Shown in pieces: positions 2,781-63,616 of a DNA stretch of 64,000 bases. Both the position numbers and the translations under genes were made by a program. Source of the stretch: Bolinopsis microptera (taxonomy: Eukaryota > Ctenophora > Tentaculata > Lobata > Bolinopsidae); the NCBI RefSeq assembly GCF_026151205.1, contig NC_087074.1, positions 1,612,001-1,676,000 of the forward strand. The letters run 5' to 3'. The notes under the pieces were generated by a model. The model saw only the letters and a list, made by a program, of their open reading frames with translations. It was not told the DNA's origin and did not search any database. Each line of letters begins with the position of its first letter. Within the stretch, counting starts at the first letter, position 1.

Positions 2781-2788
2781 ATATTCTT

Positions 2789-8584: not shown

Positions 8585-8625
8585 ACATGACTGGAATATA
8601 GCCGATGCACTGCTGATTAGGGATC

Positions 8626-10785: not shown

Positions 10786-12568
10786 AACCAGACTTGGTAC
10801 TTGCTGGTGGTGTACCATATTTGTACCAGTAATTAACAAAACCTGGTAGTATTGCTCTAAGACCCATTTTCTGTTTAACAAATAGTGTTTCTAGATGGGA
10901 TTTGGCAGCAAAACCCCAGACGAGGGAGCAGTAATTAAGGTGAGACTGCACAAAGCTGTGATATATTTGTAAACGTGCTTCCAGAGGCAAATATTTTTTA
11001 AGTTTGTACATGACTCCAATGTATCTGGCCATTTTCATTTTCATGGCAGAAATATGTTGCGACCAGTTCAGTTTGTTATCTATTATAACACCTAAGAAAC
11101 GGGCTTCTGTTTTTCTTTCGATTGTGACACCAGAAATTACTACATCGCGATAAATGAGGTTTCTTTGTCGAGAAAAGATCATATAATTCGTTTTTTTAAG
11201 ATTTAGAGCTAATCCGTTGTTATCCACCCATTTAACTAAGACATCGCTAAGAATTTTGAGCTTATCATAAACCTCGTTTATATTTTCTCCTGTTAGGAAA
11301 ATGTTTGCATCATCTGCGTACATGATGAAATTAGCTATTTCTGATATTTGAGGAAGATCGTTTATGTAGATTATAAAAAGGAGAGGTCCCAAAATTGAAC
11401 CTTGGGGTACACCGTAAATAATTGGATTGGCTGAGGATTCAGAGGATCCAATTGATACAAACTGGTTTCTGTTCATAAGATATGATTTAAACCAGTTTAA
11501 AGCTAGACCTCTTATGCCATAGTGCTCGAGCTTATTCAGGAGTATGGAGTGATCCACAAGGTCAAAGGCTTTGCTAAAGTCAATCAAAAGGAGCAAAGTA
11601 ACTTGCTTTTTAGACATTGAATTGAGGATTCTGTCTTTAGCATTAAGAAGTGCATGTTCACAAGACCTACCTGGGCGGAAGCCGTATTGATTTTCACAAA
11701 GTATATTGTAGGTATCCAAGAAATTTATGACTCGATTGTGCATAAGCTTTTCGTAGACTTTTGAGAAAGTGGCAAGTAGAGATATCGGTCTGTAATTTTT
11801 GATGTCAGTTTTAGATCCACCTTTATGTACAGGAACTACTTTTGCCGTTTTCAAGGCTTGGGGAAAGACCCCTTGTTCGAACGAGCTGTTAACAACGTGG
11901 GCCAATACAGTGGTAAAATTGTGACAGCTGTTGGCAATTTTGAGTGGTTGGATTTTGGTGTCAAGAGTAGCTTTATTCTTAAATAGGTTAATAACGTCTT
12001 GAACTTCGGTAGTTGTGACTGGTTTTATGTAGATACTATTTGGAGAAGGGTTACGTAGTGTCCCCTGGGCCCCACCAGGATCGAAAGTGGTCCTACTACT
12101 AATTTCAGATTTAATTTTTGGAGCGATGTTTGAGAAGTGATCATTAAATTTTTCTGCTACTGCTGCCGGAGTGCTGACTTGTCCGTTTTCGTCCGACAGT
12201 TTTATCGATGTAGGTTTGGCTGGTTTCCTATTCAGAAGTCCGTTAATCATCTGCCACTGCTTCTTAGAATTATCTTTGTGTTGTTCAAAGAATTTTTTGT
12301 AGTGTATGTTTTTGGCTTTGTCAACGTGTTTGGTGCAAAACTTTTTCAAACGGTCATATTTTAGCTGGTTCCTATCAACTGGTTCCTTAACAAAATCATG
12401 ATATGCCTGATTTTTACGTTCTATAGCTTCTTCAAGCCAGGGCAGTATCCATGGTTTGGGATTAACACGTTCATTTTGTCTGCGCTCGGACTGTCTTTTT
12501 GTCGGGTAGGCAGCGTTATAAATCCTGTTGTAATTAGAATTAGAATTAGAATCAAATTTACACAGCAA
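10786..12568 (-). pseudogene. LINE reverse transcriptase, endonuclease lost, fused to downstream gene frame
   Basis: The open frame 12,568-10,436 encodes 710 residues. About 1-595 are LINE: a linker, then RT with NYRPISLLATFSKVYEKL, YGFRPGRSCEHAL, LIDFSKAFDLVDH, GVPQGSILGPLLF, catalytic MYADDANIF, RFLGVIIDNKLNW, and the C-terminal KQKMGLRAILPGF. Residues ~596-707 belong to the unrelated family gene at 9,557-10,785, and the last three codons of the open frame lie in its intron. The RT itself shows no stop or frameshift. The endonuclease half is absent, and the LINE C-terminus stops just after TPPASTKSGF. Whether the fusion is expressed cannot be seen. Confidence 0.85.
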
Positions 12569-12639
12569 TACAATAAGAATAAAAATAATTTAAGAAGCTT
12601 CAATCTGCTGTGCAGGACATTCAAGTCAGTCGAAAACTG

Positions 12640-12981: not shown

Positions 12982-14847
12982 TCACATAGCTAGAGTGTAG
13001 AAATAGTCGAAACTATTGTTTATTTCATAGGATGAGACTCCTTGAATTACATCTGACATAAATTTAGATTTCATACATTGTGAGAATTTTACACTACATT
13101 CTATAGTCCTTATGTTCTCTGGAATTGTATTCCAACATTTTGCACCTAAATATGTAAAGGTTTTGTGTGTTCTGGATTTGTGAATATAAAGGTTGCACCT
13201 CTCAGCATCACGTGATCCTCCGGATACATAAGAAAATTTATCTGTGAATGATGATGGTGCAGCCTCATTAAGAATTTTATACATATACGTTGATAGATGG
13301 AGTTGTCTTCTTAAGTGTAAGGGTAACCACTTCATATTTCGATATACATTTACTGATGGTTCCTGCCAATGAACATCCAGAGCAATTTTTGCTACTTTCT
13401 TGTATAATATATCAAGAGAATTAAGTTTGGTTTTGGCAGCCCTACACCATATTATATCCAGGTAGTCAAATTGGGGGAGCATAAGAGCATTTACAAACAT
13501 TTTTCTATATTTCAGTGGAAGAAGATTTTTCGACCTGTATAATGCCCCTATTCTTTTAGCAATTTTTGATTTCACATAATCAATATGGTCTTGAAAGTTC
13601 AATAAATTGTCTATCATGAGACCTAAATATTTTTGAGATTTAGTTTCTTCTATAAATAGGCATTCTTTTTCCAAATCCAGAGGGATTGACAACGTGTCCA
13701 GATTAGGTGATCTATCAAATACAATGAATGAAGATTTTGCAGCATTTAGTCTTAGCTTGTTGATTCTAAGCCATTCATACACAATTTTCATATCCTTAAT
13801 TACATTCTCATATATGCCTCGGGAAATGTTATCAAAATATAGTGCACTATCATCTGCAAATAAGTAAACAGTAGATTGTGTGCAATTTCTACTGAGATCA
13901 TTTATGAATAAACTAAATAGAATTGGTCCTAATATGCTACCCTGTGGCACACCTGTTTTAACAGGGAGTGATGTGCTTACATTACCACGTATTTTGGTGT
14001 GTTGCTTTCTGTCCCCAAGGTAGCTTTTGAACCACTTTATGACAAAGCCATCAACTCCATAATACTTAAGTTTTTTTAATAAAATATTATGGCTTACTGT
14101 GTCAAAGGCCTTTTTGATATCTAAGAATACAATTGCAGGTTTCTTCTGTGATTCCTTAGACGTAAATATTTTATCAAATAGATTAAGCATTAGAAAAGTG
14201 GTGGAATGATCTTTTCTAAAACCATACTGATGGTTGGTAAGCAGTTTATTTGTTTCAACATACTCTGTAAGCTGTTGGTTAACAAAATATTCTATGCATT
14301 TTCCAAGTAGGGGGAGTATGGATATTGGCCGGTAGTTATTTGGATCATTAGGGTCACCAGTTTTAAGAATTGGAGTGACTGATGCAATTTTACATGCCAA
14401 CGGCATTGTTCCACTTTTCATACTAAGGTTTATAATATGAGCTACTGGATCGATGATTTGGGGAATAATATACTTATATATTTTAATGGGCATGATATCG
14501 TTAATCGATTTATCTGATGGTATACTGAGTATATATTCTTTTACTTGTTCAACAGTCACCTCTTCGAATACAGAGAGTTTACACTCTGTTGGAGGCGGCA
14601 TATATTCTAGGAAGTCGTCTGAATCCTTTTCCTTAATCGATTCTTGTATTATTGTACCAACTGTGGCAAAATGCAGGTTAACTCCGTTAACATTTAAGTT
14701 GCTTGGGGAAGAGCTACTTATTTTTCCAGGTAAGTTTGAAGCATGTTTGATAGTTTTCCAAATGCCTTTTAAATCGTTTTTTGCACTTTTCACAGTAAGG
14801 TCCTGAACAATATTTGTACGTCTGTTTTCTTTGGATAATTTTGTCAC
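12982..14847 (-). pseudogene. LINE ORF2, reverse transcriptase part
   Basis: About 620 codons open. The frame has linker, PNNYRPISILPLLGKCIEY, YGFRKDHSTT, IVFLDIKKAFDTVSHN, GVPQGSILGPILF and catalytic FADDSALYF, then KYLGLMIDNLLNFQDH and the C-terminal LPQFDYLDIIWCRAAK block. It overlaps the endonuclease frame (14,714-16,189) in a different register, so ORF2 of this element is broken near 14,850. Compared with the intact element at 28.5 kb, the linker between endonuclease and RT also looks short. All catalytic residues are present. The apparent start is an alternative codon, so there is no real initiation here. Confidence 0.85.
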
Positions 14848-16189
14848 AGTTTCTTTGGGGACGATAGTTATCCCACGAAGTAGAGCATTTCTTGTAAGCC
14901 GAATTTAAACAATCAAACTGCTGGTTAGCATCAGGGGTATTTGTTAGTATTACAGACCAATTTTCTTCCATTATTAAATCTCTAAATTTATGGTTGTTGG
15001 CCTCATTAAAACTACGTACGTTGGTTTGTGTTGGATTTTGATTATAAGATGCGGAGCGGTAACTGCTGGTGGATGTATTATCAAGATTAATTGTTGTAAC
15101 TATCGCTAAGTGATCCGACAGATCTGTCGTTAATACGTTGCAGCTTATTGTATCTTCAAGATTGTTCGTGTAGATATGATCAATAAGCGTGGCACTGTGG
15201 TCTGTTATGCGAGTTGGACGTGATACAATTTGGATGAAACCGTAAGAGGATGCAATATCTATAATGCTTTGACATGCCTGGTTGCTACTGTGCTTCAGTA
15301 AATTTAGATTAAAATCTCCATGTAACGTCATATGTTTGCGAGAGTGTCTTCCCAGGTTGTGAAGCGTACTTTTAAAAATTTCAAGAAATGCTTCAGGTTT
15401 TCTAGCGGGAGAGCGATAAACATTTCCAATTATCTTTGTTCTATTATATCCTTTACACTGGTGGATCTTGATAAATTGAAATTCGCCGCTAGTATTTGAG
15501 GGTTCAGGGTTGGGATTGAAAACATCAATTTTATCAGAGTCAGCTACACGTTTGTGTATGTATATGGCAAGCCCCCCACCTTTACCCGATGTGCGGATGG
15601 GATCTTGGATATACGGTTCATGGAATCCATTTAATGTGATGTCGTTTATTCCGTTAGGCAATTTTTCTAGTGTGCAGTTAGTTTCGTTAAAACACAATAC
15701 ATCATACTTATCATACATTTCTATATCTTCTCGTAGTTGATCAATATTTTTGAAAAGGGATCTGATATTCATGGAAAATGTTTTAAGTTGAGAGGATGTC
15801 GACCTTTTTATGTTACGTTGCTGTTTATACTGACAGTGAGTTAGGAAAGCCGAAATGTCACTCCATGTTGAATCATGGTGTTCTTCATTGGTCATGGCGT
15901 CTCCAATAAGATTACATCGACTATTTTGAGCGTATGGATTATAAATAGCGCAATTAAGCTTATTGTAGTCATCGTAAATTTCATAGTAAGTCGCGTAAAA
16001 TCCAGGAATAAGACTTTCACAACAGCTTGTACAACCTAAATTTTCCTTAAAACATTTGACGTGGACGTTGTTTTGGCACCATGAACAGCTGCGGATGTTT
16101 TTGGAAGAATAACACCAGCCGCTACAGCTACCACATTTTATTTTGATTTTATGACCAGAAGTATCAGTAACATTTCCATTCGCTGCCAT
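14714..16189 (-). pseudogene. LINE ORF2, N-terminal zinc finger and endonuclease part
   Basis: 491 codons starting with MAANGNVTD. A Cys-rich N-terminus (residues 19-58: CGSC, CSWC, H.KCF, CTSCC) resembles a PHD-type finger, as in the plus-strand LINE at 28,520. An APE-like endonuclease follows: SMNIRSL, CFNET (catalytic Glu), GNVYRSP, GDFNLNLL (Asp/Asn), LIDHIYTN and LSDHLAI (catalytic His). The last ~45 residues are out of register with the following RT frame. With 12,982-14,847 this forms one minus-strand LINE that lost ORF2 continuity by a frameshift, probably with a deletion. Confidence 0.85.
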
Positions 16190-18203: not shown

Positions 18204-18233
<30 letters not shown>

Positions 18234-21200
18234 CTCCTCCTCCTCCTCCTCCTCCTCCTTCTCCTCCTCCTCCTCCTCCTCCTCCTCCTCCTCCTCCTCC
18301 TCCTCTTCCACCTTCTCCTCCTCCTCCTCCTCAGCCATCCTCCTCAGCCATCCTCCTCAGTCCTCCTCAGTCCTCCTCAGTCCTCCTCAGTCCTCCTCAG
18401 TCCTCCTCCTCTGCAGTCCTCATCATCCTCCTCAGTCCTCCTCCTCCTGGGTCCTCCTCCTCCTCTTCATCCTCCTCCTCTTCCTCCTCAGTCCTCAGTC
18501 CTTCTCCTTAGTCCTCCTCCTCATCCTTTTCGTCAGTACTCCTCCTCCTCAGTCCTCCCCCAGTCCCCCTCCTCCTCCTATTCAGTCCTCCTCCTCCTCC
18601 TCCTCAGTTCTCCTCCTTCTCATTCCTCCTTCTGAGTCCTCCTCATTCCTCCTTCTGAGTCCTCCTCTTCCTCCTCTTTCTCCTGAGTCCTCCTCCTGGG
18701 TCCTCTTTCTCCTCCTCCTTCTCAGTCCTCCTCCTCCTCCCTCTCAGTCATCCTCCTCAGTCATCCTCCTCAGCCATCCTCCTCAGCCATCCTCTTCAGC
18801 GATCCTCCTCAGTACTCCTCAGTCCTCCTCCTTCTCAGTCCTCCTCAGTCCTCCTCCTCAGTCATCCTTCTCCTCCTCCTCCTCCAGGGGGGATCCTGTT
18901 TTTTATCCGTTTTTTCCGTTCGGAACCCTATATTATCAAAACGGACAAAAAATAGAGCGGACAAAAACGGACAAAAACGGACAAAAAATAACAAAAATGG
19001 AAATAATATTTAGATGCTTCCTCCTCCTCCTCAGTCTTCCTCAGTCATCCTCCTGAGTCCTCCTCCTGGGTCCTCCTCCTGGGACCTCCTCCTCTTGGGT
19101 CCACCTCCTCTTCATCCTCCTCCTCTTCCTCCTCAGTCCTCAGTTCTCCTCCTCAGCTCAGTCCTCCTCCTCAGTCCTCCTCCTCATCCTTTTCCTCAGT
19201 CCTCCTCCTCAGTCCTGCCCAGTCCCCCTCCTCCTCCTATTCACTCCTCCTCCTCCTCCTCCTCCTCCTCCTCCTCCTCCTCCTCAGTCCTCCTCCTCAG
19301 TCCTCCTCCTCCTCAGTCCTCCTCCTTCTCAGTCCTCCTCCTCCTCAGTCATCCTCCTCAGTCCTTCTCCTCCTCAGTCCTTCTCCTCTTCCTCCTCCTC
19401 CTCCTCAGTCTTCCTCATATTCCTCAGTCCTCCCCCAGTCACCCTCCTTCTCAGTCCTCCCCCAGTCACCCTCCTCCTCATCCTCATCCTCCTCATCAGT
19501 CCTCCTTCGCCTTCTCAGTCCTCCTCTTCAGTCCTCCTCCTCCTTTTCCTGGTTCCTCCTCCTCAGTCCGCATTCTCCTCCTCAGTCCTTCTCAGTCCTT
19601 TCCCCAGTCACCCTCCTCCTCATCCTCCTCATCAGTTCTCCTTCTCCTTAGTCCTCCTCCTCAGTCCTCCTCCTCCTCCTCCTGGGTTCTCCTCCTGGAT
19701 CCCTCTTCTCCTCCTCAGTCCTTCTCCTCCTCCTCAGTTATCCTCCTCCTCCTCCTTCTCCTCCTGGGTCCTCCTCCTTCTGCTCACCAGTCCTCCTCCT
19801 CACTCCTCAGTCCTCCTCATCCTCTTCATCCGCTTACTTCTCCTCCTCATCAGTCCTCATCAGTCCTCCTCCTCCCAAGTCATCCTCCTCCTCCTGGGGC
19901 CTTTTCCTGTGTCCTCCTCCTCCTGGGTCCTCCTCCTCAGTCCTCCTCCTCTTCCTTCTCCTCAGTCCTTCTCCTCCTCAGTCCTTCTCCTCTTCCTCCT
20001 CCTCAGTCTTCCTCCTCCTCAATCCTTTCCCCAGTCACCCTCCTCCTCATCCTCATCCTCCTCATCAGTCCTCCTTCTCCTTCTCAGTCCTCCTTCTCAG
20101 TCCTCCTCCTCCTCTTCTTCCTGGTTCCTCCTCCTGGGTCCTCCTTCTCCTCCTCAGTCCTCCTCCTCTTCCTCCTCCTCCTGGGTCCTCCTGATCCTCC
20201 TCAGTCTTCTTTCTCCTTCTACTCCTCAGTCCTCCTCCCCCTCAATCCTCCTCTTCCTCCTAAGTCCTCCCCTCCTCAGTCCTCCTAAGTCCTCCCATTC
20301 TCAGTCCTCCTCCTCATCAGTCCTCTTCACCAGTCCTCCTCCTCAGTCCTCCTTATCCTCATCCTTCATCTCCTTCCTTCATCTCCTTTCTCCTCCTCAT
20401 CCTCCTCATACACCTCCTCCTCATCAGTCCTCCTCCTCACTGCTCACTCCTTCTCCTCCTCCTCCTCCTCCTCCTCCTCCTCCTCCTCCTCGTCCTTAGT
20501 CCTCTTTATCAGTCCTCATCAGTCCTCATCAGTCCTCCTCCTCCCCAGTCCTCCTTTTGGGGCCTTTTCCTGGGTCCTCCTCCTGGGTCCTCCTCCTCTT
20601 GGGTCCTCCTCCTCTTGGGTCCTCCTCCTCATCCTTCTCCTTAGTCCTCCTCCTCCTCAGTCCTCCTCTTGAGTCCTTCTTCTCCTCCTCCTCCTATTCA
20701 TTCCTCCTCCTCAGTTCTCCTTCTCAGTCTCACTCCTCCTTCTCAGTCCTCCTCCTCCTCTTCTTCCTGGTTCCTCCTCTTGGGTCCTCCTTCTCCTCCT
20801 CAGTCCTCCTCCTCTTCCTGGGTCCTCCTGATCCTCCTCAGTCTTCTTCCTCCTTCTACTCCTCAGTCCTCCTCCTGCTCAATCCTCCTCTTCCTTCTAA
20901 GTCCTCCCCTCCTCAGTCCTCCTAAGTCCTCCCCTTCTCAGTCCTCCTCCTCATCAGTCCTCTTCACCAGTCCTCCTCCTCAGTCCTCCTTATCCTCATC
21001 CTTTATCTCCTTTCTCCTCCTCATCCTCCTCATACACCTCCTTCTCCTCATCAGTCCTCCTCCTCACTCCTCAGTCCTTCTCCTCCTCCTCCTCCTCCTC
21101 GTCCTTAGTCCTCTTTATCAGTCCTCATCAGTCCTCATCGGTCCTCCTCCTCCCCAGTCCTCCTCATGGGGCCTTTTCCTGGGTCCTCCTCCTCTTGGGT

Positions 21201-21365
21201 CCTCCTCCTCTTGAGTCCTTCTTCTCCTCCTCCTATTCATTCCTCCTCCTCAGTTCTCCTTCTCAGTCTCACTCCTCCTCAGCCCCCCTCCTCTCCCTCC
21301 TCAGTCCCTCCTCAGTCCCCCTCCTCAGTCCCCCCTCCTCCTTTTCCTCTCTTTCATCTCTCAAT
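18204..21365 (+). repeat. 3.2 kb polypyrimidine tract, TCC/CTCAGTCC repeats
   Basis: The plus strand is almost pure T/C apart from AG steps in CTCAGT and occasional GGG. Units are TCC, TCCTCAG and TCCTCCTGGG. It is broken near 18,890-19,010 by a second CGGACAAAAA block. Higher-order duplication is visible: 20,296-20,540 recurs near 20,939-21,150 (about 610-640 bp apart). Long Pro/Ser/Leu open frames on both strands are products of the repeat, not genes. Confidence 0.9.
18935..19018. repeat. CGGACAAAAA minisatellite, middle block
   Basis: It has the same order as 18,105-18,204: AAAACGGAC units, an AATAGAGCGGAC spacer, then TTTAGATGCTTCCTCC. This shows that the minisatellite and the start of the TCC tract were duplicated together. 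Confidence 0.75.
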
Positions 21366-22334: not shown

Positions 22335-25300
22335 GGCACTATCCGTCGCGGAGTCGAGTCCGCGGCGGAGCCGCCGGACTCCGAGCGGACTCCGAGCGGA
22401 CTCCGGCGGAGCCGCCGGACTCCGAGCGGACTCCGGCGGAGCCGCCGGACTCCGAGCGGACTCCGGCGGTGCTCCGCCAAAATGTATTTACAGTGGACTC
22501 GAGTACATTTTGGCGGACTCCGAGCGGAGCCGAGCGGAGCCGAGCGGAGCCGAGCGGACTCCGAGCGGACTTTAAAGTCCGCCGCGGACTCCGAGCGGCT
22601 CCGCGGCGGCTCGGCGGAGTGTCCGCCGCGGACTAAGCCACTAGGCGGACTCCGGTCCGCCGCGGACTCCGGCGGAGTGCTTGGCGGACTCCGCCGGACC
22701 TCTCCGCCAGACTTGAATCCGGCGGAGTCCGGCGGAGCTTGGCGGAGTCCGCCAGCTCGGCGGACTCCGCTCGGAGTCCGCCGGACTCCAACAGAGTCCA
22801 CTGACTTCCGACCTCCGTCTTCCGACCCTCGGCTAAATTTGTCACGTGACATACAACATAGCATTTTGCAATATTGTGGTCAGATGAAAAGGTCGCTAGT
22901 GATAAACCTTAACCATTACCCTCACATGAATGTCAATAGTGTACAACTCTAGTCCTAACTTTGACGCTATAATGTATAAACGTTGACCCTAACCCTCCAC
23001 CAAACCGTCCGCAGCGAAATATCAATGTCATTGACTGGTCACGTGACCAAAACAATTTTTGTCATATTATCTCATATGGGGAAGCGTTTTTAGCAAGCAA
23101 AAATACGTCGACCATCACAGGACGACGCCAGCACTCTCTACGCTCGTCGAGCTCCGATCGTCCTGTGACGAAGTAAGGACGAAGCCTGAGGTCCTCAGGT
23201 AACATCGACCACCGATTGAAAATTCAAAGATTTTTTGACAGAAAGGTCAAATGTAAAACTAAAATCTTGATGTTAATTGATTGACGACGTCAATTTTTGA
23301 GCACAGCGCGAGCGCATGCGGAAAAGGACCGCGTAGCTAGTCAAGATGTTGATAAATATTTGGCTTGTGGCGCGATGTGTTGCTTTAAGTCTAACTATAG
23401 CCCTTTCGCTTGCAGTAGCGCGCGACCGCCGGAGGCGGAAATGACCTGGTTAGCTAGGTAAACGCGATGTGCCTTGTAGGATGAAATCCTACTAGCTGAC
23501 GCCATTCGCAGCTGTGCTGCTCGCTGTACGTCAGCGATCGAAATTTATACGCGTATCCCCCGTTAAGATGTGCCACTCGACGCGCCACACAATTTTTCTC
23601 GTTGCTCGTCGCACGTCGACGAACAACGAAGCTCGTTGCGACGCGCAATGAGCTGCCAGGCTAGGACATCGTCCTGGTCCAACAAATTTTGGCGAGCGAT
23701 TTTCTCCAAAAATTTAATATATATATATTATTTATATATATAATGAGGGCGCCGACTTCCACTCTGGCTAGGTTTCTTGTTACCCAGCGCGCGTTCCTTA
23801 ATGGGATGAGGTAAAATTAGGTAAAAAGAATCCACTGACTTGGCCAGAGTGCTTTCATAAAACTCTATTACTAGCTTGGCGTTGTATGATTATATACTTT
23901 AATTTCGGATCGAGTGAAGCGAGTGATACACATTACTTTGATTAAACTCATGCTGATCACAATACAGTACAGGGAAGTGGGTAACACGGCTTGCAGTCGC
24001 AGCTGCAGCTCCTCGCTGGCGGTAATATTTCAATGAACAAGAATTAAGAAAAAGAGAATTTAAGAAAAAGAGAATTTTATTTGCCACAGAATAATCAATA
24101 CATATAATATACTTCAAAAACTTCAAAATATATTGTAACATGTAATAGTTCATCTATCGTTCATAAGATGGGGTACTCTCAATAATCAAGTATGAAGTAC
24201 ATGAGTACCCGACCCGCCGCGCTGGGTAAGAAGAAACCTAGCCAGAGTGGAAGTCGGCGCCCTCATTAAATTTTTGGAGAAAATCGCTCGACAAAATTTG
24301 TTGGACCAGGACGATGTCCTAGCCTGGCAGCTCATTGCGCGGCGCGTCGCAACGAGCTTCGTTGTTCGTCGACGTGCGACGAGCAACGAGAAAAATTGTG
24401 TGGCGCGTCGAGTGGCACATCTTAACGGGGGATACGCGTATAAATTTCGATCGCTGACGTACAGCGAGCAGCACAGCTGCGAATGGCGTCAGCTAGTAGG
24501 ATTTCATCCTACAAGGCACATCGCGTTTACCTAGCTAACCAGGTCATTTCCGCCTCCGGCGGTCGCGCGCTACTGCAAGCGAGAGGGCTATAGTTAGAGC
24601 AACACATCGCGCCACAAGCCAAATATTTATCAACATCTTGACTAGCTACGCGGTCCTTTTCCGCATGCGCTCGCGCTGTGCTCAAAAATTGACGTCGTCA
24701 ATCAATCAACATCAAGATTTTAGTTTTACATTTGACCTTTATGTCAAAAAATCTTTGAATTTTCAATCGGTGGTCGATGTTACCTGAGGACCTCAGGCTT
24801 CGTCCTTACTTCGTCACAGGACGATCGGAGCTCGAAGAGCGTAGAGTGCTGGCGTCGTCCTGTGATGGTCGACGTATTTTTGCTTGCTAAAAACGCTTCC
24901 CCATATGAGATAATATGACAAAAATTGTTTTGGTCACGTGACCAGTCAATGACATTGATATTTCGCTGCGGACGGTTTGGTGGAGGGTTAGGGTCAACGT
25001 TTATACATTATAGCGTCAAAGTTAGGACTAGAGTTGTACACTATTGACATTCATGTGAGGGTAATGGTTAAGGTTTATCACTAGCGACCTTTTCATCTGA
25101 CCACAATATTGCAAAATGCTATGTTGTATGTCACGTGACAAATTTAGCCGAGGGTCGGAAGACGGAGGTCGGAAGTCAGTGGACTCTGTTGGAGTCCGGC
25201 GGACTCCGAGCGGAGTCCGCCGAGCTGGCGGACTCTGCCAAGCTCCGCCGGACTCCGCCGGATTCAAGTCTGGCGGAGAGGTCCGGCGGAGTCCGCCAAG

Positions 25301-25606
25301 CACTCCGCCGGAGTCCGCGGCGGACCGGAGTCCGCCTAGTGGCTTAGTCCGCGGCGGACACTCCGCCGAGCCGCCGCGGAGCCGCTCGGAGTCCGCGGCG
25401 GACTTTAAAGTCCGCTCGGAGTCCGCTCGGCTCCGCTCGGAGTCCGCCAAAATGTACTCGAGTCCACTGTAAATACATTTTGGCGGAGCACCGCCGGAGT
25501 CCGCTCGGAGTCCGGCGGCTCCGCCGGAGTCCGCTCGGAGTCCGCTCGGAGTCCGCTCGGAGTCCGGCGGCTCCGCCGCGGACTCGACTCCGCGACGGAT
25601 AGTGCC
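22335..25606. mobile_element. foldback-like element with ~1.4 kb inverted arms
   Basis: The left arm is 22,335-23,792 and the right arm 24,219-25,606 in inverse orientation. The outer ends both read GGCACTATCCGTCGCGG. The outer ~500 bp of each arm is GC-rich and built of CGGAGTCC/CGGACTCC subrepeats. The inner part is unique. The arms differ by a TATA-rich insertion at about 23,717-23,742 in the left arm, different subrepeat numbers and scattered substitutions. The spacer (23,793-24,218) has no transposase. The same outer end recurs in each array unit with different flanks, which supports a real terminus. No target duplication was found. Non-autonomous foldback element or inverted segmental duplication. 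Confidence 0.7.
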
Positions 25607-36590: not shown

Positions 36591-39500
36591 ATGAGTAATG
36601 ACATTCAAGCAGTGTGGCACACATACATCAATTCTCAGAAGAACGATAGCCTAAAAAGAAATAAGAATTTAGAGCAATTTCTGAAATGTTATCAGGACCT
36701 TTATCAGTCTTCCAAGTGTACTCTTTTGTAAGTATACATCTTCATAATATTCATATTTTTAAAGTTGCACTATTAAAATTCAAATCAACAGAAATTTGCT
36801 ATTAATCCTGTTATCATAAATATTTAAACTTGTTACAGGGATCTGGCCAGTGTCCAGAGTGTGCTCATGGAGCACTTTATAACCGATATCATGGGCCTTT
36901 GTGACGAAAATTCGAAGGAGAGTGTCCTGGAGGAATACCTTTTGAGCCAGCATGGGACACTTCTTATTGAAACATTATCTTTGCTCACCAAACAAGTAGG
37001 ATATTATATTACATTGGTCTATTAACTGTGGTTGTGCTGGTGAAATTATTTGATGTGTTCTTAACGTTTATTGATGATTCAATGAAAGGATAAAGGAGAT
37101 AAATAGTGTTTTACTTTCAGTCAGAGCCTACAACCCACATCAGTGAACTAGCTCCTTTGGTATTGAGTCTCATAGACTTTATCATGAACTGGAATACAAA
37201 TGTTGTCATCAGTACAGGTAGGAGCTCAGTTTTACTTAAACCAGGTTCCTCTCCACAGTCGAACTAACGTTTGCACATTTCCAAATTAGTTGCATCATCC
37301 TGTAGGGGTTGATAATGCACATGGTAGGGTTATTGTTTATAATGCCCTGGCCATTGTAAGTGGATCTGTAATCCAATTCAATTAGTGAACACAAATGTAG
37401 ATCACATGTTTAATACATGAGCATAAGATAGGATTACACTTCCAAAGCTGCTAAGCATAATAATTTATAAATAAATGTTAATCAAATTAACCCCAGATCT
37501 CTTTTCAACGTGCTCTTTGGACAAGTGTTTTGGTGATGAACCAGTGTTGATTGTGAATACTACAAACACAGAAATACAGACAACAATGAATGAAGCAGAG
37601 AATATAACAGCTGGGAAAATCGTGGAAGAGAAAGAATCCAAGAGTAACGATACAGAAAAAGATCCTAAAATAGACCCAGAAAGTGAGGCTCAACAGCGAG
37701 GATCACTCTACTTGTCCTTGTCACATCTCCTTAACCTTGCCAACAACTTGGGTTGTGTCCAAAGATGTACTTCAATTCCTGAAAACAAGGTTTTTGTAGC
37801 TCGATTGATTTACCTTTCATCATGTGAAACAAATTTTAGAAGAATCAAAGTTTGATGTTTAGAAAATTTCTTTTGTACCTATATAACTTATCTGCAATGT
37901 AAATGTTAAACTCATTAATGACCATGTATCATTGACAACACAATTTTTATAAATATTCAACAATAATTTAATTTGAATTTAACTAGAATACGTCAGGTCT
38001 CAATAATAATTCTAGCTCACTTGATTGGAGTTCTGGGTCAGCAGTGTTCGGAGCAAACTGAAAAGGAGCCACCTAGAAGTCCTGTCTGTAGTGTGTTTGT
38101 AAAGCGGTCCCTACTCCTAACCATCCTCTCTATTGCTAATTCTATCCTTGTGTCAGTCTTCCATATTTACCATTAATTTTAAATGCGATCTAATCTGATG
38201 TGCAATATTTCGTACATAATTAATATTTGAAATGATTCTTATGGGTAGTTGATGCTTCGAAATTAAAATTAACAACTTCGAGTTTGGAAGTTTTGCTCGA
38301 AATATAATTAATCCAATTAATAACATCAGTAAAGATGTGCTGTTGCTGGCTCAGAGTCAGTTTATGGATCAGATGATCGCTCTTGCTGACACTTGTTCTG
38401 ATGCTAACATCAAATCTACTCTTTTAACTGGTAAGGGTGGGGATTATACATTATATATATATAATATATATTAATGCTTTTCATACAAAGTTATAACGAA
38501 TTCTTCATGTCGTGCATCTGGGTTTGGACAGGATATGCCCGCTCAATAAATGTAAAAGATTTGTAGTGTTGTAATTAGTTTTACATTTGTCATGTTTAAT
38601 TAGGTAAAGTTTTGAAAATATTGAAAAAATATTGAAAAACATTTATTACAAAAGGGATAATTTTACTGATTGTCTGTTTTCAGGACTCCTAATCCTGCTG
38701 GAAAAGAGTCTGAATCTCCCTGGCAACGACATTACAGGATTCTCTACCTTCTTTGCTCAATTCTTCCTCCTGGGGTTCAAACAGTGTGCCAATACACTCT
38801 GCAACTGCGGCGAGGTGGCTGTCTTTATATATCTTATCTGACTTGTCGACTTGATCTATCTGACTTGATCCATTTAATCGATTTACGTACCATAGTTTCA
38901 ATCGTCATGAGACTATTACTGTAACTACTGTTACCATGACAACACTACTGTTACCTGTTACAATCGTTACTAAAGGATGCTCAGTAGATTGATGAAGCCT
39001 TTAAATCTATTTCAGGTGATGTGTGAAAAAGAAGACGACTTACTTAAAGCCAGTTCGGAGACACTGATAACACATCTAGCTTCACTGCACGGTGCTATCG
39101 AGATGAGCGAGAAGTAAGACAATACGTCACAATCTTTCTCTTTAGTTTGTGTGGTGTTTAGTATACCCTTATATGGGCATCACGTGTGGTGTTTGGTATA
39201 CCCTTACATACACGTGATGCCCTTATATGGGCATCACGTGTTTAGATAGCGGTTATTATTGCGACAGTATTCGAATAAAAGACAATTTTGATGATAGTTG
39301 TTAGTACAAATATCAATTATTTGCTACCAGCGTATCACTACTGACTAGTAGGAATAGTCTCAGTAAGTCTCACTGCCCCCCCCCTCACCCCCTCACCCCC
39401 TCACCCCCTCACCCCACAGATCAGGATTAACAGAATACATAGAACAAAACAGAATTATTGGAGACTCTGTTGACAGCACTTCCACCCCTGGCTCAGCTCT

Positions 39501-42500
39501 CTTCTTTACATTCGCCCTCTCCAATTCCGTCTTTTTACAGGTATGTACCCGACTTTTCATTAATTTGTTTGAGAATATTTTATGGTTTTTCTTAGGTGTA
39601 TAAGATGGCTTTTAAATTGAGGTAGAGCTGATTTATAGTTAAAAACTATTTTGTTGACCATGATCCTAAAATGTCTAGTTAAAGATAATTCTTACCCAAT
39701 GTTCGTGACGGAATTATGTAACCTGAATATGTTATAATAATACCGTATACTATTTACATTTAATAAACAACTTCATGAATGATAATATAAGTTATGAATA
39801 ATGTAACAAACAAAATGTAACAGTGTTACGATTATGTAAGTTATGTCAATATCATATTGTGTAGTATTATGTAAATATGTGTAATGATTGTTTTTTTCAG
39901 GAGTGTGTGTTGGATAGTTGCCTGGAACACGGTGTAGTGTGTAATGTGTCTCTTAAACAGGTAACTATGGGAACCCTGGTAACCCTGGTAACCCCGGTAA
40001 CCCTGGTAACCCTGGTAACCAGTATAATGTGTCTCTTAAACAGGTAACTATGGAAACCCTGGTAACTATGGTAACCCGGGTAGTGGTAACTATGGTAACC
40101 CTGGTAACTATGGTAACCCTGGTAACTATGGTAATCCTGGTAACCCTGGTAACCCTGGTAACGGATTATTCTCACCCGCATTTTGGGGCCGTCTCAATAT
40201 TCATTACTTATCCGGGTCGTGATTCTGAGACCGGATAAGCTTTTAGTTATTTTTGGTCTGATTGGTCCTTGTGCAATGGGGCTGATAGGCGGGCCCCCTT
40301 ACTTAGATAATATCGCCTTTATGTTAATATGATTTTTATGCTCACTCACAAAAAGCACTTTTATGATGTCAAAGATGGTTGAATTATAAAATATGTAAAA
40401 AGTAATGTATTTTATGGATTGTGGTATAACACACTCTTTTTCTCTTCAGACGTTCACATTGTTGCTGTGGAACTACAAGCAGCGTCCTGAACACGTACAG
40501 TGTAAAGTGCTGTCCGGACTTGAAAAGGTTTGTTAACAGTGTGTTGGACACGTGCCAATACTTTAGTAGTGTGTTCGACACGTGCCAATCCTTAACAGTG
40601 TGTTGGACACGTGCCAATACTTTAACAGTGTGTTGGACACGTGCCAATACTTTAACAGTGTGTTGGACACGTGCCAATACTTTAGTAGTGTGTTGGACAC
40701 GTGCCAATACTTTAGTAGTGTGTTGGACACGTGCCAATACTTTAACAGTGTGTTGGACACGTGCCAATACTTTAACAGTGTGTTGGACACGTGCCAATAC
40801 TTTAACAGTGTGTTGGACACGTGCCAATACTTTAACAGTGTGTTGGACACGTGCCAATACTTTAGTAGTGTGTTGGACACGTGCCAATACTTTAACAGTG
40901 TGTTGGACACGTGCCAATACTTTAGTAGTGTGTTGGACACGTGCCAATACTTTAACAGTGTGTTGGACACGTGCCAATACTTTAACAGTGTGTTGGACAC
41001 GTGCCAATACTTTAGTAGTGTGTTGGACACGTGCCAATACTTTAGTAGTGTGTTGGACACGTGCCAATACTTAAGTAGTGTGTTGGACACGTGCCAATAC
41101 TTTAACAGTGTGTTGGACACGTGCCAATACTTTAACAGTGTGTTGGACACGTGTCAATACTTTAACAGTGTGTTGGACACGTGCCAATACTTTAGTAGTG
41201 TGTTGGACACGTGCCAATACTTTAGTAGTGTGTTGGACACGTGCCAATACTTTAGTAGTGTGTTGGACACGTGTCAATACTTTAACAGTGTGTTGGACAC
41301 GTGCCAATACTTTAACAGTGTGTTGGACACGTGCCAATACTTTAACAGTGTGTTGGACACGTGCCAATACTTTAACAGTGTGTTGGACACGTGCCAATAC
41401 TTTAACAGTGTGTTGGACACGTGCCAATACTTTAGTAGTGTGTTGGACACGTGCCAATACTTTAACAGTGTGTTGGACACGTGCCAATACTTTAACAGTG
41501 TGTTGGACACGTGCCAATACTTTAGTAGTGTGTTGGACACGTGCCAATACTTTAACAGTGTGTTGGACACGTGCCAATACTTTAACAGTGTGTTGGACAC
41601 GTGCCAATACTTTAACAGTGTGTTGGACACGTGCCAATACTTTAACAGTGTGTTGGACACGTGCCAATACTTTAGTAGTGTGTTGGACACGTGCCAATAC
41701 TTTAGTAGTGTGTTGGACACGTGCCAATACTTTAACAGTGTGTTGGACACGTGCCAATACTTTAACAGTGTGTTGGACACGTGCCAATACTTTAACAGTG
41801 TGTTGGACACGTGCCAATACTTTAACAGTGTGTTGGACACGTGCCAATACTTTAACAGTGTGTTGGACACGTGCCAATACTTTAGTAGTGTGTTGGACAC
41901 GTGCCAATACTTTAACAGTGTGTTGGACACGTGCCAATACTTTAACAGTGTGTTGGACACGTGCCAATACTTTAGTAGTGTGTTGGACACGTGTCAATAC
42001 TTTAACAGTGTGTTGGACACGTGCCAATACTTTAACAGTGTGTTGGACACGTGTCAATACTTTAACAGTGTGTTGGACACGTGCCAATACTTTAGTAGTG
42101 TGTTGGACACGTGCCAATACTTTAACAGTGTGTTGGACACGTGCCAATACTTTAGTAGTGTGTTGGACACGTGCCAATACTTTAACAGTGTGTTGGACAC
42201 GTGCCAATACTTTAGTAGTGTGTTGGACACGTGCCAATACTTTAGTAGTGTGTTGGACACGTGCCAATACTTTAACAGTGTGTTGGACACGTGTCAATAC
42301 TTAAACAGTGTGTTGGACACGTGCCAATACTTTAACAGTGTGTTGGACACGTGTCAATACTTTAACAGTGTGTTGGACACGTGCCAATACTTTAGTAGTG
42401 TGTACAGACTGTTCATATCTTTAGTGATTTGACTAAAAATGGTCGACATATCTTGCTCTTTATCAAAGTATCAATGTATATTGCTCCTTTAAAATAATAG

Positions 42501-45500
42501 CCCCTTTTTTTGTAATGTGACCCATCTTTGTGACCAGTGTATTTATTGTAAATTAGATTACACGATAGTTCTTGTTGAACATTCTCTACTCAGCTCAGCA
42601 TCTCTCCTGGAAATATCCCTTTTTTCTGAGAAATAACCCACTTTTTTGTGAAGTTTGGGATAAAATATCATCCCGCAAGTTATATTAGAGCGCCACCACC
42701 GTCAATTAATAACACTCTAATTTCACTGTTGTTCTCTTTAACAGGCAGTACTCACTATAATGACTGTGTCCTATTACAGGTATTACTGACAGCTCCCTTT
42801 TAACAGGTAGTACTGACTGCTGATAAGTATGAGTTTCTCTTCCCTACCTCTCCCTCCTCCTCTCCACAATACCAAGCTGCTGACTTCAAGGAACGATTCA
42901 TGAACTTCTCTAATGATTTGTTTGAGAAGCGGAAGAAGCAGCAAAATGCAAATAAATCTATCTCCGATCATTGGTCCTGCTTGTCTGACTACTGCCAGGT
43001 TAGCTTAGTTAGTTTAGTTAGCTTAGTTAGCTTAGTAAAATTAGTTAGCTTAGTTAGCTTAGTTAGCTTCAGTAAGCTTAGTTAAGTTTAGTTAGCTTAG
43101 CCAGCTTAGTTAGCTTAGTTAGCTTAGTTAGCTTTAGTAAGTTTAGTTAGCTTAGTTAAATTAGTTAGCTTAGTTAGCTTAGTTAGCTTAGTTAGCTTAG
43201 TTAGTTTAGTTAGCTTAGTTAGCTTAGTTAGCTTAGTTAGCTTAGTTAGCTTAGTTAGCTTAGTTAACTTTAGTTAACTTTAGTTAGCTTAGTTAGCTTA
43301 GTTAACTTAGTTAACTTAGTTAGTTTAGTTAACTTAGTTAGCTTAGTTAGCTTAATGAGTTGAGTTAGCTCAGTTAGCTTAGTTAGCTTAGTTAGCTTAG
43401 TTAGCTTAGTTAGCTTAGTTAGCTTCAGTTTCACTTACTATAGATAAGTACTGTCTTATTGCAAAGGAACTGGTTGGTTTTGTTATTCAATAACTTAATT
43501 GTTTCTAAAAACCGCTATATTTAAACCTGGTCAGGTGTTACGAGACAGTAACGAAACACTGATCACAACATTGGGAGAACACCTCAGCTCACTTTGTAGT
43601 AAAGGAAGTCAACAACTCAGAACTAAACTACTTAAATACTTGTTCCTAAAAGAGGTATGTTTGTTTATACATACCCTTATATGGGCATCACGTGTTTAGT
43701 ATACCCTTATATGGGCATCACGTGTTTATTGTTTACATATTATATTATTTTCATAGTTAACCGTTAAATTACCACTTCCATTCCATACACTGTGTCTCTT
43801 ACTATCTTTACACGACGAGAAGTAAACTATCGTATTCTTATTATAAGATATTAATTAAAGTTACGTAGTGCAGTAAGTTACGTAATCCTTTTACTCTTTT
43901 TATCATTTAAGTACTTAGTAGGAAAGCCGCCTTGACACGGGTAATTAATATTTCTTAACAATATAATATATTGTCGATAAGAGTAATACAGTAAAACCCC
44001 GATTTACCGCGGAGTTTGGGGAAAGGAAACATCCGCGGTAAATCGGGGTTCGCGGTAAATCGGGTTTTTGTTCGTTTACACTTTACATTATGCACGTTAA
44101 GCCATATCTTGGGGAAAGGAGATTGCGGTAAATCGGGGCGCGGTAAATCGGGGTTTTACTGTATCTTGTTACATATAATTTCATATTTTGCGTTAATAAA
44201 TAGTTTGCTCATCCTATTTATATTTCCCGGCATTGTTTAACTGAACTATATCATTGTTTACCGTTGTGTGCAAATCTTGCAGATGCGTGATATTGGAAAC
44301 TATTTCGCGCTACACTACACGAAAAACAGCAGTCTCAGCAGACAGCAGCACATGTCCAATATAGGTTAGTGCCCTTCTCCGACCCTTGTTAAAATAAATT
44401 CAGTTGTTTTGTACTATTCATCTTTCTACGGTCTACGTCATGTGTATTCAGCATCTTCTGACGTCACACTCTCCCTCACGTGACGTCACACTCTCCCTCA
44501 CGTGACGTCACACTCTCCCTCACGTGACGTCACACTACAACGTCACTATTTTAACAGCATGACGTCACAACTTAACTCACGTGACGTCACTATTTTAACA
44601 GGTATAAGCACGATGATTCTGTACCGAGACCTCTGCACTCCCGAACTAATTGTCACTACAATAATGCCCTCGCTGCTGCACCTTCTGGACGACGCGGACA
44701 GGAAGCTTCTCTTTCACAGCGGTAAGTTGCGAAAATTTGCCTACATTCCTAACTTCCTGTTTCATTTGTCCTTGTCTCTTCCAACCGGATATTATCCAAC
44801 TATCGGCAGCTGTATCAATAGTATTATATAAAGTGGTTACGTTCGAATCTTTTACCATACACTGTGTGACGATAAAGGAACCAGTTGATTGTTGAATTAT
44901 AAATAGAGCCGAATTGTTGTAAAGTACTCAGCTGGAGTGGTCTCAGTGGTCTCTGTAGTCTCAGTGGTCTCTGTAGTCTCAGTGGTCTCAGTGGTCTCAG
45001 TGGTCTCTGTAGTCTCAGTGGTCTCAGTGGTCTCTGTAGTCTCTGTAGTCTCAGTGATCTCAGTGGTCTCTGTAGTCTCAGTGGTCTCAGTGGTCTCAGT
45101 GGTCTCTGTAGTCTCAGTGGTCTCAGTGGTCTCAGTGGTCTCTGTAGTCTCAGTGGTCTCTGTAGTCTCAGTGATCTATGTAGTCTCAGTGGTCTCTGTA
45201 GTCTCAGTGGTCTCTGTAGTCTCAGTGGTCTCTGTAGTCTCAGTGGTCTCTGTGGTCTCTGTAGTCTCAGTGGTAATCTCTGTGGTCTCAGTGGTCTTGC
45301 GAAATATCAACCTCCCTCCCCCAGTGGGTCTCTGTGGTATCAAGTACAAAATACTCACTATCACCACTCCTCTGTAACCTTAATCACGGTGTACATTATT
45401 ATATTACATGTAATGTATATCGTATTCTCGTAATAGTTTCAATTAAATCGGGCTTCCTTATAATCCCCTCAAGTGTGTAATTTAGTTGTATTATCTGCAC

Positions 45501-46618
45501 TCAGTCATAATTCATATCATTGCGTTTTCCATATTATTGAACTTGTCGAACCATTTATAAAGTATCCTGTAGCGCGTGCAAATAGTGATAATGTAGCACG
45601 TGCAAATAGTGATAATCACGCTACTCATCTGATACACCTTGTTTCATTTCTGATTTCTCAATGTTTCTAGAAATCTAATAACACTGAGTTCTATCAATAC
45701 AGCCGAGCTTGAGAGCTTGAGAGATGAGTATGTACCTACCTTGTCAGATGAAATTGGTGTCTGGGGTCGCAGTGTAGACTGCTAGTTCTAGAGTTTCTGT
45801 AAGGAGATTGTGATAAACCACGTGGTGCCCATATAAGGGTATACTCAACACTCGTGTTACCTGCGGACAATAATTGTCACGGTATATCTACTGTACATAG
45901 CTGTGTTGGGAAGTTAATCATGCCTTGCAAACAAAAGGCTGGTTGAAAATACTGATTTGATGGTTCTAAGCCCTGCCCGAACCTGACCAATGGGCAGGTC
46001 GTAGTTGAAAGTTACCTTGTGATGCCCATATAAGGGTATACTAAACACGTGATGCCCATATAAGGGTATACTCAACACGATACTATAGAGTTGTAAGTTA
46101 CTGAGAGACCTGCACTGAATACAATACTGGAAGGCTATGTAATGGGCTCCATTATCTTATTGATATTGTAATTGCAGCTCAGCAAGGGAGGGATTACCTA
46201 ATATGGTCTGGAACATTACCTAATAATAATATGGTCTGGAACATTACCTAATATGGTCTGGAACTGATCGTGTTGCTCAAGTACCTTAAGTTTGTGTGTT
46301 TCATTACTCGATAAGTGATAATGACTGTTGACCACAAACATTGTTCACCTCGGAGCTGATAGATTTGAAAATTATCCTTCTATAAGTACCTGCAATTTTA
46401 TTTGTTAATTCGACTTAACCATTAACTAATTAATTGAATCTCCAATTAACTAATTAACTAATTAACTAAATCTCTAATTAACTAATTAACCCATTATCGC
46501 AGAGTCGGGCGTGGATAGTCTGCAGTATCTGATCCACCACAAGCTGACACGAACTCACGTGCTCCAGCTTTACCAGCTTCTCATCTCCGGGGATCAGGGA
46601 CCTCCCGAGCTTATTCCG
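36591..46618 (+). CDS. 15-exon gene, large helical-repeat protein, 3' end beyond the exons seen
   Basis: Exons: 36591-36727, 36839-36995, 37121-37217, 37497-37789, 38283-38430, 38684-38814, 39016-39113, 39420-39540, 39901-39960, 40450-40527, 42807-42998, 43535-43654, 44283-44364, 44602-44721, 46503-46618. All introns are GT-AG and every phase matches, giving 650 codons. The Met at 36,591 has a purine at -3 and an in-frame TAA 14 codons upstream. The protein is rich in Leu/helical stretches (ISELAPLVLSLIDFI; LLHLLDDADRKLL), with an acidic loop (VEEKESKSNDTEKDPK) in exon 4, so it is probably an ARM/HEAT-like solenoid. I cannot name it. The N-terminal pattern FITDIMGLC…EYLLSQHGTLL faintly recalls LYST (lysosomal trafficking regulator). 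The last donor (GTTAGT) leads into the 5.36 kb array, so the gene is incomplete here. Confidence 0.75.
39164..39245. repeat. CArG/E-box motif repeats, intron 7
   Basis: Copies of ACCCTTATATGGGCATCACG ending in CACGTG. CCTTATATGG is a perfect SRF CArG box and CACGTG a palindromic E-box. One copy is inverted and joined head-to-head with the next. The same motif recurs near 43,665-43,730 and 45,815-46,080. Confidence 0.7.
39374..39417 (+). repeat. CACCCCCT minisatellite forming the exon 8 acceptor
   Basis: About five units of TCACCCCC run directly into CCACAG, the acceptor of exon 8, so the repeat is the polypyrimidine tract. Confidence 0.75.
39961..40172 (+). repeat. GGTAACCCT minisatellite at the exon 9 donor
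   Basis: The intron opens with GTAACTATGGGAACCCTG and continues as 9-bp GGTAACCCT / GGTAACTAT units. At 40,024-40,053 the last 19 bases of exon 9 and its donor (CTTAAACAG then GTAACTATGG) are copied again inside the array. Confidence 0.85.
40533..42405 (+). repeat. 30-bp minisatellite, about 62 copies, in intron 10
   Basis: Exactly 60 registered units at 40,621-42,420 (the last one partial) plus three variant units before. Each unit has TTTAACAGTG or TTTAGTAGTG, then TGTTGGACACGTGCCAATAC. Variation is nearly limited to the AAC/AGT position and a C/T change in GCCAA. It starts five bases after the exon 10 donor and fills most of the intron. Since 30 is a multiple of 3 and no frame has a stop, long open frames appear in several registers; they are not genes. 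Confidence 0.95.
42730..42806 (+). repeat. triplicated acceptor before exon 11
   Basis: Three similar sites in a row: TTTAACAGGCAGTACTCAC (AG at 42,744), TTACAGGTATTACTGAC (42,780) and TTTAACAGGTAGTACTGAC (42,806). The third is used in my exon model because only it keeps the frame open into exon 11. Confidence 0.65.
42999..43425 (+). repeat. GTTAGCTTA minisatellite at the exon 11 donor
   Basis: A 9-bp unit GTTAGCTTA with variants (GTTAACTTA, GTTAGTTTA), about 45 copies. The first GT is the splice donor of exon 11, so the donor is itself a repeat unit. Confidence 0.9.
43665..43730. repeat. CArG/E-box motif repeats, intron 12
   Basis: Two direct copies of TACCCTTATATGGGCATCAC followed by GTG, as at 39,164. 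They lie 10 bp after the exon 12 donor. Confidence 0.7.
43989..44161. mobile_element. pogo/Tigger-like MITE
   Basis: 173 bp with inverted ends CAGTAAAACCCCGATTTACC / GGTAAATCGGGGTTTTACTG flanked by TA on both sides (43,987-43,988; 44,162-44,163). Internal GCGGTAAATCGGGG repeats. Ends and TA duplication fit the Tc1/mariner-pogo group. No coding capacity. Confidence 0.8.
44458..44601 (+). repeat. E-box/CRE repeats ending at the exon 14 acceptor
   Basis: Three 22-bp units containing CACGTGACGTCA (E-box overlapping a CRE-like TGACGTCA) with CACTCTCCCT. Then CGTCACTATTTTAACAG occurs twice; the second copy is the real acceptor of exon 14. Confidence 0.8.
44936..45300 (+). repeat. GTCTCAGTG / GTCTCTGTA minisatellite, intron 14
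   Basis: About 40 nine-base units alternating between the two forms, often as an 18-bp pair. The 146-codon open frame of Val/Ser repeats over it is an artefact of the repeat. Confidence 0.9.
45300..46502. other. intron 14, remaining part
   Basis: No exon with matching phase was found. It contains three inverse copies of the CArG/E-box motif (about 45,819-45,845, 46,020-46,045, 46,046-46,075), a triplicated ATATGGTCTGGAACATTACC block (46,195-46,265), and an ATTAACTA microsatellite (46,435-46,492). Confidence 0.5.
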
Positions 46619-57651: not shown

Positions 57652-58262
57652 GGCACTATCCGTCGCGGAGTAGAGTCCGCACCCAAGGCGGAGCCGCGGA
57701 ATCCGTGCGGACTCCGGGCCGGTGCTCCCGCTTAAAATGTAGTTAAACTGGATCGAGTCATTTTGGGCGGACTCGAGCGGAGCCGAGCGGGGACTCCAGA
57801 GCGGACTCCGAGCGGGACTTTAAAGTCAGCCGCGGCTCCAGAGCAGGCTCCGCGGAGGATACCGGCAGAGTGTCCGCCGCCTGAGTAAGCCTCTTGGCGG
57901 ACTCGGTCCGATGCGGACTCCGGCGTGTGTTGGCGGACTCCGCGGTACCCTCTCCGCCAGACTTGAATCCAGCCGGAGTCCGCCAGCTCCGGCGGACTCC
58001 GCTCGGAGTCCGCCAGGACTCAAACAGAGTCCACTGACTTCCGACCTCCGCTTCCGTCCCTCGGCTAAATTTGTCACGTGACATACCAAAATGCATTTTG
58101 CAATATTGTGGTCAGATGAAAAGGTCGCTAGTGATACCCTTAACCATTACCCTCACAATGTCAATAGTGTACAACTCTAGTCCTAACTTTGACCCTATAA
58201 TGTATTACGTTGAACCTAAACTCCTCACTCACAAACAGGTCCGCTGCGAAATTTCAAATGTC
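57652..58262 (+). repeat. array unit 3: foldback-element end
   Basis: Starts GGCACTATCCGTCGCGGAG, the same terminus as the intact element at 22,335. Confidence 0.75.
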
Positions 58263-63008: not shown

Positions 63009-63616
63009 GCACTATCCGTCGACGGAGTAGAAGTAAGCGGCGGAGACGCGGACTCGAGCGGACTCCGCGGTTGCTCCGCTAAAATGTATTTTAAATGGAC
63101 TCGAGGACTTTTTGGCGGACTCCGAGCGGAAAAGCCGAGCGGACTCCGAGCGGTACTCCGTGCGGACTTTAATGTCCGCGCGGATCCGTGCGGCTCGCGG
63201 AGGCTCGGCTGAGTGTCCGCGAAGAGTAAGCCTATAGGCGGACTCGGGTCCGCTGCGGACTCCGGCGGATGTCGCAAGGGTAGGCGGGACTCCGACTGAC
63301 TCTCCGCCCAGACTTGAATCAGCCGAGTCCGCCTGGCTCGGCGGGACTCGCTCGGGTACGGCCGGGACTCCAACAGAGTCCACTGAACTTCACGACCTCG
63401 ACTTCCGACCCTCGGCTAACTTGTCAGTGACATTAAAAACATAGCATTTTGCAATATTGTGGTCAGATGAAAGGTCGCTAGTGATAATCTTAACCATTAC
63501 CCCTCACAATGCTTCAATAGTGTACCAACTCGAGTCCTAACTTTGACACATAATGTATTAACGTTGACCTTACCCTCTCACCAACCGTCCGCAGCGAAAT
63601 ATCATTGTCTATTGAT
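63009..63616 (+). repeat. array unit 4: foldback-element end
   Basis: Fourth copy, starting GCACTATCCGTCGACGG. Confidence 0.7.

Follow-up and report, generated by a model that had tools for sequence, protein, structure and literature searches.

Why do the splice sites of a single gene lie inside or at the edge of tandem repeats, intron after intron? This question is raised by a gene of the ctenophore Bolinopsis microptera in a 64,000-nucleotide stretch of contig NC_087074.1 (assembly GCF_026151205.1, positions 1,612,001 to 1,676,000, forward strand). This stretch is hereafter called the window, and its coordinates are used for the gene. The contig measures 21.3 Mb in an assembly of 264.65 Mb and 232 contigs. 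The border excess of repeats holds in the window gene and extends to further genes of the genome.

Repeats at the splice sites of the window gene

The gene was modelled on the forward strand at 36,591–44,721 with 15 exons and 14 introns, and one reading frame of 647 amino acids is kept through all 14 junctions. By codon score, for which the exons of this gene are part of the training set, the chosen frame ranks top of three in 15/15 exons, narrowly so in exon 15 (1.6 vs 1.5). The start ATG at 36,591 is a guess, and the frame is open past exon 15, the 3′ end being absent from the model. The protein had no match in Pfam or PDB, neither of which could name it, and a scan of the window against Rfam at gathering scores gave no match.

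Arrays called by Tandem Repeats Finder (TRF, score 50) are present in introns 6, 8 and 10–14, and none were called in introns 1–5, 7 and 9. Five of them are flush with splice sites, three at donors and two at acceptors. Together with a degenerate triplicated acceptor at exon 12, they bear out the six repeat-associated splice sites in 5 kb that the initial annotation had described, whose exon numbers are one lower than those used here. On the donor side, the array offsets are −1 bp in intron 10, +5 bp in intron 11 and 0 bp in intron 12; on the acceptor side, the distance from array end to acceptor is 4 bp in intron 8 and 0 bp in intron 14.

Intron 10 is opened by a GGTAACCCT array (39,960–40,162; offset −1 from the exon-10 donor at 39,960/39,961). 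The last bases of exon 10 (39,901–39,960, forward strand) and its donor are copied within the intron at 40,028–40,055, 83 bp downstream and with 27/28 bases, which agrees with the copied exon end reported at this donor (exon 9 in the earlier numbering); the copied donor, if used, would add 83 nt and shift the frame. A 30-bp array (40,533–42,403; 62.4 copies, 95% matches) begins +5 from the exon-11 donor (40,527/40,528), where a 62-copy array had been noted five bases from the donor of the former exon 10. At the exon-12 donor (42,998/42,999), the first unit of a GTTAGCTTA array (42,999–43,430) is the donor itself, with offset 0, just as had been stated for the former exon 11. The 30-bp unit (≤2 mismatches) has 60 matches in the genome, all within intron 11 and on one strand, the GTTAGCTTA trimer occurs at two places, here and once on contig C7, and GGTAACCCT is dispersed across contigs on both strands (82 forward, 58 reverse). 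Each of these three neighbouring introns thus opens with a unit of its own.

On the acceptor side, a CCCCCTCA array (39,380–39,415) stops 4 bp short of exon 9, confirming the repeat seen at the former exon 8, but it is less remarkable because it is pyrimidine-tract-like. The duplication reported at the former exon 14 was also recovered: ACGTCACTATTTTAACAG occurs twice in the window vs 0.01 expected, within a 22-bp array (44,540–44,601) that ends at the exon-15 acceptor. Another 22-bp array, TGACGTCACACTCTCCCTCACG, lies at 44,459–44,536 in the same intron 14. The triplication described at the former exon 11 stands in part. By eye, three related, degenerate copies of the exon-12 acceptor region are seen at 42,737–42,819, with their first exon-like bases at 42,745, 42,780 and 42,807, whereas a search with ≤3 mismatches over 21 bases finds two copies (0.00 expected) and TRF calls none. 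Splicing at the two upstream copies would shift the frame or run into an in-frame stop codon. The view that the repeats create decoy splice sites is supported by these copies of an exon end with its donor and of acceptors.

The ten intronic TRF arrays of the gene were placed randomly within their introns. At a limit of 5 bp, three donor edges gave P = 0.0025, two acceptor edges P = 0.034 and both jointly P = 1 × 10⁻⁴; the joint P was 0.017 at 40 bp, indicating that the signal is concentrated at the very border. Since the gene had been singled out after inspection, other genes were tested.

Array edges at splice borders in other genes

At 157 donors (15 of the window gene, 54 of conserved genes and 88 called ab initio), 12 arrays start at 0–10 bp vs 15 at 11–150 bp, a 10.2-fold higher density (P = 1.4 × 10⁻⁷; this and the other edge tests treat arrays as independent, with loci L011, L012 and L015 each contributing more than one). 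The initial annotation had suggested a genome-wide comparison of minisatellite starts within 10 bp of donors with shuffled expectation; the count given here covers sampled loci. The excess persists after removal of the window gene (10 vs 12, P = 1.2 × 10⁻⁶) or of GGTAAC arrays (9 vs 11, P = 4.6 × 10⁻⁶). At 156 acceptors, 8 array edges lie near the border vs 22 farther out (4.6-fold, P = 0.0011). Array coverage near the donor is 1.3% at −10, 4.5% at +3, 9.6% at +8 and 12.7% at +40, and remains about 12% to +80.

The conserved set holds 54 introns from genes of the myosin, dynein, kinesin and TCP1 families, with family membership and not repeat content guiding the choice. Six myosin, one kinesin, one TCP1 and three dynein loci were fetched from 73, 109, 35 and 67 family matches, all 284 of which lie on contigs C1–C13, eleven of these contigs being 15.2–26.2 Mb long; compactness played a part in the selection of loci and may have tilted the set towards short introns. 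Two low-scoring introns, ten exon pairs with gaps >25 residues (8 + 2) and three myosin matches in the fetched loci (two with internal stops, one duplicating an L029 exon) were excluded. An alternative exon may therefore lie within one L029 ‘intron’, whose arrays are far from borders. In this set alone, 1 donor edge and 2 acceptor edges lie within 10 bp vs 1 and 4 farther out; pooled, 3/8 edges are near a border, a weak signal (P = 0.016). Random placement at limits of 5, 10, 20 and 40 bp gave joint P values of 0.34, 0.033, 0.045 and 0.31.

The ab initio set comprises 93 exons from 20 loci picked for GGTAACCCT arrays, or 88 without L021, a near-copy of L020 that was left out of the edge density count only. 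These two segments, about 0.27 Mb apart on C6, encode the same peptides in their exons (Arfaptin-like in L020) and both carry a GGTAACCCT array, of 4 and 8 copies. Random placement in the ab initio set at the same limits gave joint P values of 0.002, 5 × 10⁻⁵, 3 × 10⁻⁴ and 0.0025. Moreover, good donors are preceded by an exon-like stretch in 7/48 cases at array edges, 4/113 at 10–60 bp and 92/2234 farther away, and good acceptors adjoin one in 6/26, 9/78 and 110/1882 cases, respectively.

Several recognizable genes are among those with border arrays. In the G6PD-like gene (L024), an array starts at +5 from the donor, a second occurrence of exon end and donor lies 219 bp downstream (21/28 bases), and 8 bp separate the end of a 54-copy GGTAACCCT array from the acceptor. 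In the WD40 gene (L011), exon end and donor make up a 26-bp unit that begins a 665-bp array, and a probable next WD40 exon was recognized by eye as an open frame about 1.4 kb past the donor. An intron of the CYFIP-like gene (L015) is 97% array (698/719 bp, reaching to 5 and 16 bp from its ends), and the exon end at the next donor is copied 77 bp downstream. Arrays lie at +1, +7 and +2 in the Ephrin-receptor-like (L012) and LDL-receptor-like (L014) genes, and at +7 in the myosin of L029. On the minus strand of L012, a 675-bp array of 37-bp units ends at the exon with the acceptor at 3437; its consensus contains the TGTTACAG acceptor, and the exon start itself is without a copy.

Junction-spanning copies and the origin of border arrays

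Copies of splice junctions were defined by at least 21/28 bases within 1200 bp. They were found at 6/162 donor junctions, compared with 0–2/162 in two exonic windows and 14–16 of about 160 in four intronic windows, and the reversed control gave 0 copies at the donor junction. At acceptors, the junction gave 1/161, the exonic windows 2 and 2/161 and the intron 9–14/161. Junction-spanning copies are therefore not in surplus over interior copies but rarer. The close copies of an exon end with its donor are those of window exon 10 (27/28), L011 (28/28) and L015 at position 4915 (27/28), and 5/7 junction copies have shifts of 77–236 bp. Splicing at any of the six copied sites tested would disrupt the frame or introduce a stop (6/6), which is what obligatory use of the outer site predicts. 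Unlike these, the 36-bp copies of L016 stay open in frame. That locus was considered as the clearest example of a mirage, as tandem repeats across exon–intron boundaries are called in lancelets, and was set aside, its kinase-like exons being out of order by eye and its array open in frame, while being retained in the counts.

Donor-like motifs occur in 4/16 donor-edge units vs 58/309 other arrays (P = 0.36) and branch-like motifs in 5/15 acceptor-edge units vs 54.5/309 others (P = 0.12). The possibility that the arrays are amplified splice motifs was rejected, as neither enrichment in border units is significant. GGTAACCCT was likewise rejected as a splice-born repeat, since it is found on both strands and also in coding-like open frames, and its omission leaves the result unchanged. 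It is read as Gly-Asn-Pro repeats in a bZIP-domain exon (L009, minus strand) and in the LDL-receptor-like gene (L014, plus strand). A common mechanism that duplicates intron borders, as proposed in the initial annotation, is not demonstrated: junction copies are rarer than interior ones, the 30-bp unit is confined to a single intron, and the motifs are not significantly enriched.

The explanation that we favour, at close to even odds (probability about 0.48), is blind tandem duplication that is tolerated while the outer splice site works and then decays into arrays abutting the constrained signal. In the order of events that we infer, short tandem duplications would arise throughout this repeat-rich genome irrespective of splicing. 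Those within an exon would be lost and those within an intron would be neutral, whereas junction-spanning ones would be partly tolerated while the outer site, that is the first donor or the last acceptor, remains in use, because its use leaves the mRNA unchanged. The intronic copies would drift and expand to short-unit arrays, with selection holding the exon and the splice hexamer, which would explain why array coverage, about 1% in the last exon bases, is already about 10% by 8 bp past the donor. Young cases would then be mirages with a copied exon end (window exon 10, L011 and L015 at position 4915), the G6PD-like intron would be a case in decay, and old cases would be arrays beginning just behind the donor hexamer. 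Blind duplication with selection explains the acceptor edge count (10 edges in −60..10 bp, equal to the intronic rate, P = 0.68) and about half of the donor excess, and the intermediate level of donor junction copies is roughly what it gives with partial tolerance across the donor.

Several results weigh against this explanation. The 16 donor edges in −60..10 bp exceed the blind model with an exonic reach of ≤60 bp (P = 0.005), and closing this gap needs founding duplications that reach farther into the exon, for which the 5/7 shifts are a thin base. The donor excess thus calls either for long founding duplications or for an added process such as erosion of unique sequence or a mild donor hot spot, for which it leaves room. 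In addition, acceptor junction copies (1/161) are no commoner than exonic ones (2/161), so tolerance at the 3′ side is without support, which slightly lowers our confidence in the blind model. Among the six donor copies, those of L016 (odd exon order) and of L015 at position 6591 (exon unconfirmed) are doubtful.

It is possible, though not probable, that splice borders and above all donors are hot spots for starting tandem duplications, for example through transcription-tied breaks or R-loops, a reading that the initial annotation put forward in general terms. This would account for the 10-fold donor peak, which is missing with decoy splice codes, for the three unrelated units, one of them genome-unique, with which introns 10, 11 and 12 begin in a single gene, and for a donor excess only partly covered by the blind model. 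Yet a hot spot is hard to reconcile with the rarity of junction-spanning relative to interior copies, with the lack of a significant donor-like motif excess in border units and with an array start within 10 bp at only 1/54 conserved-gene donors. We are similarly doubtful that donors in this lineage are themselves mutational hot spots, with something tied to transcription or to the 5′ splice site seeding the duplications. If they were, minisatellites would continually replace introns, starting at the borders and proceeding inward, with a changing cloud of decoy splice sites at each border. Erosion, in which arrays arise anywhere in introns and neutral deletion of unique sequence brings them against the signals, is somewhat less likely still. 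Arrays do extend right to the splice signals, and the nearly all-array CYFIP-like intron fits, but erosion leaves the exon ends copied inside arrays unexplained and predicts that acceptor edges should peak beyond the branch point and pyrimidine tract, whereas the excess lies at 0–10 bp.

Retention of border arrays by selection, as suppliers of extra donors, branch points or pyrimidine tracts, appears highly unlikely: some acceptor arrays carry branch-like TAAC or pyrimidine runs, but neither the branch-like nor the donor-like motif is significantly enriched. An artefact, whether from the way exons are called or from the way array edges are defined, seems to us equally improbable. The concern arises from the 88/157 donors that are ab initio calls in loci selected for GGTAACCCT arrays, from unconfirmed exons (L018, L020 at position 5160 and the last of L015), from the scrambled-looking exon order of L016 and from at least one ab initio ‘intron’ (in L011) joined to an exon of another gene. 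When the limit on repeats inside exons was lifted, the donor result was weaker (8 vs 16, P = 2 × 10⁻⁴) and the acceptor result not significant (4 vs 20, P = 0.09). However, five decoy splice codes run through the same pipeline yielded 268 pseudo-exons with 2 donor edges at 0–10 bp and 48 at 11–150 bp, compared with 9 and 13 for the 93 ab initio exons of the real code; the acceptor edges near and farther were 4 and 52 for the decoys and 5 and 18 for the real code. A stricter exon score retained the donor result (5 vs 8, P = 0.0016; acceptors 3 vs 9, P = 0.05), as did dropping GGTAAC arrays, and the G6PD_N profile (L024) and the FragX_IP profile continue across introns.

Relation to known systems and other repeats in the window

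The lancelet mirages described in the available portions of PMC3087553 and PMC3902484 are tandem repeats spanning exon–intron boundaries in Adh3, globin, troponin C and PGBD5 genes, a handful of genes for which normal splicing and length instability are reported. Judged by these portions, the structures found here are of the same kind: within a single genome, several genes have repeat units that hold the end of an exon together with the donor, a unit spans the boundary at 6/162 donors and 1/161 acceptors, window exon 10 included, and the copies carry AG/GT splice signals. Unlike in the lancelet cases, most border arrays here are without exon sequence, acceptors have a single junction copy, the genome is that of a ctenophore, and edges were counted against background. 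Added here to the lancelet record are a further genome with mirages, a count of edges relative to background and the prevalence of border arrays free of exon sequence.

Intron gain by tandem duplication, a model credited to Rogers in the part of PMC3087553 that was available and exemplified by a potato RdRp case in that of PMC4974935, is a related process. As in that model, as far as these parts describe it, the duplications here include splice signals; there is no sign that the introns are new. Introners, or dispersed intron-generating elements, are repetitive sequences bounded by splice sites, present as near-identical inserts in many genes. Here, the units differ from intron to intron, and the 30-bp unit belongs to one intron. 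Among the matches listed by literature searches on ctenophore minisatellites, on repeats at ctenophore introns or splice sites and on splice-junction tandem repeats, none was on this subject. Finding an edge excess in another animal lineage, probably very remote from lancelets, would suggest a general phenomenon of minisatellite-rich introns. It would also furnish natural test constructs in which many equivalent splice sites follow one another and the rule of site choice can be examined.

Other repeats were noticed in and around the gene. A TATACCCTTATATGGGCATCACGTG-like element occurs in both orientations inside and behind it (39,149–39,216, 43,671–43,728, about 45,820–45,860 and 46,019–46,079), and intron 13 holds an inverted-repeat element at about 43,987–44,165 (TACAGTAAAACCCCG ... 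CGGGGTTTTACTGTA) that by eye resembles a miniature inverted-repeat transposable element. Long open frames at 2774–4090, 6158–8638, 10,439–12,589 and 12,985–14,904 resemble, by eye, those of retroelement proteins. A TCC-rich degenerate array of three kilobases at 18,208–21,342 is flanked by CGGACAAAAA-type repeats, and CGGACTCCGAG-type repeats recur at 22,363–22,569, 25,409–25,585, 57,767–57,815 and 63,115–63,168.

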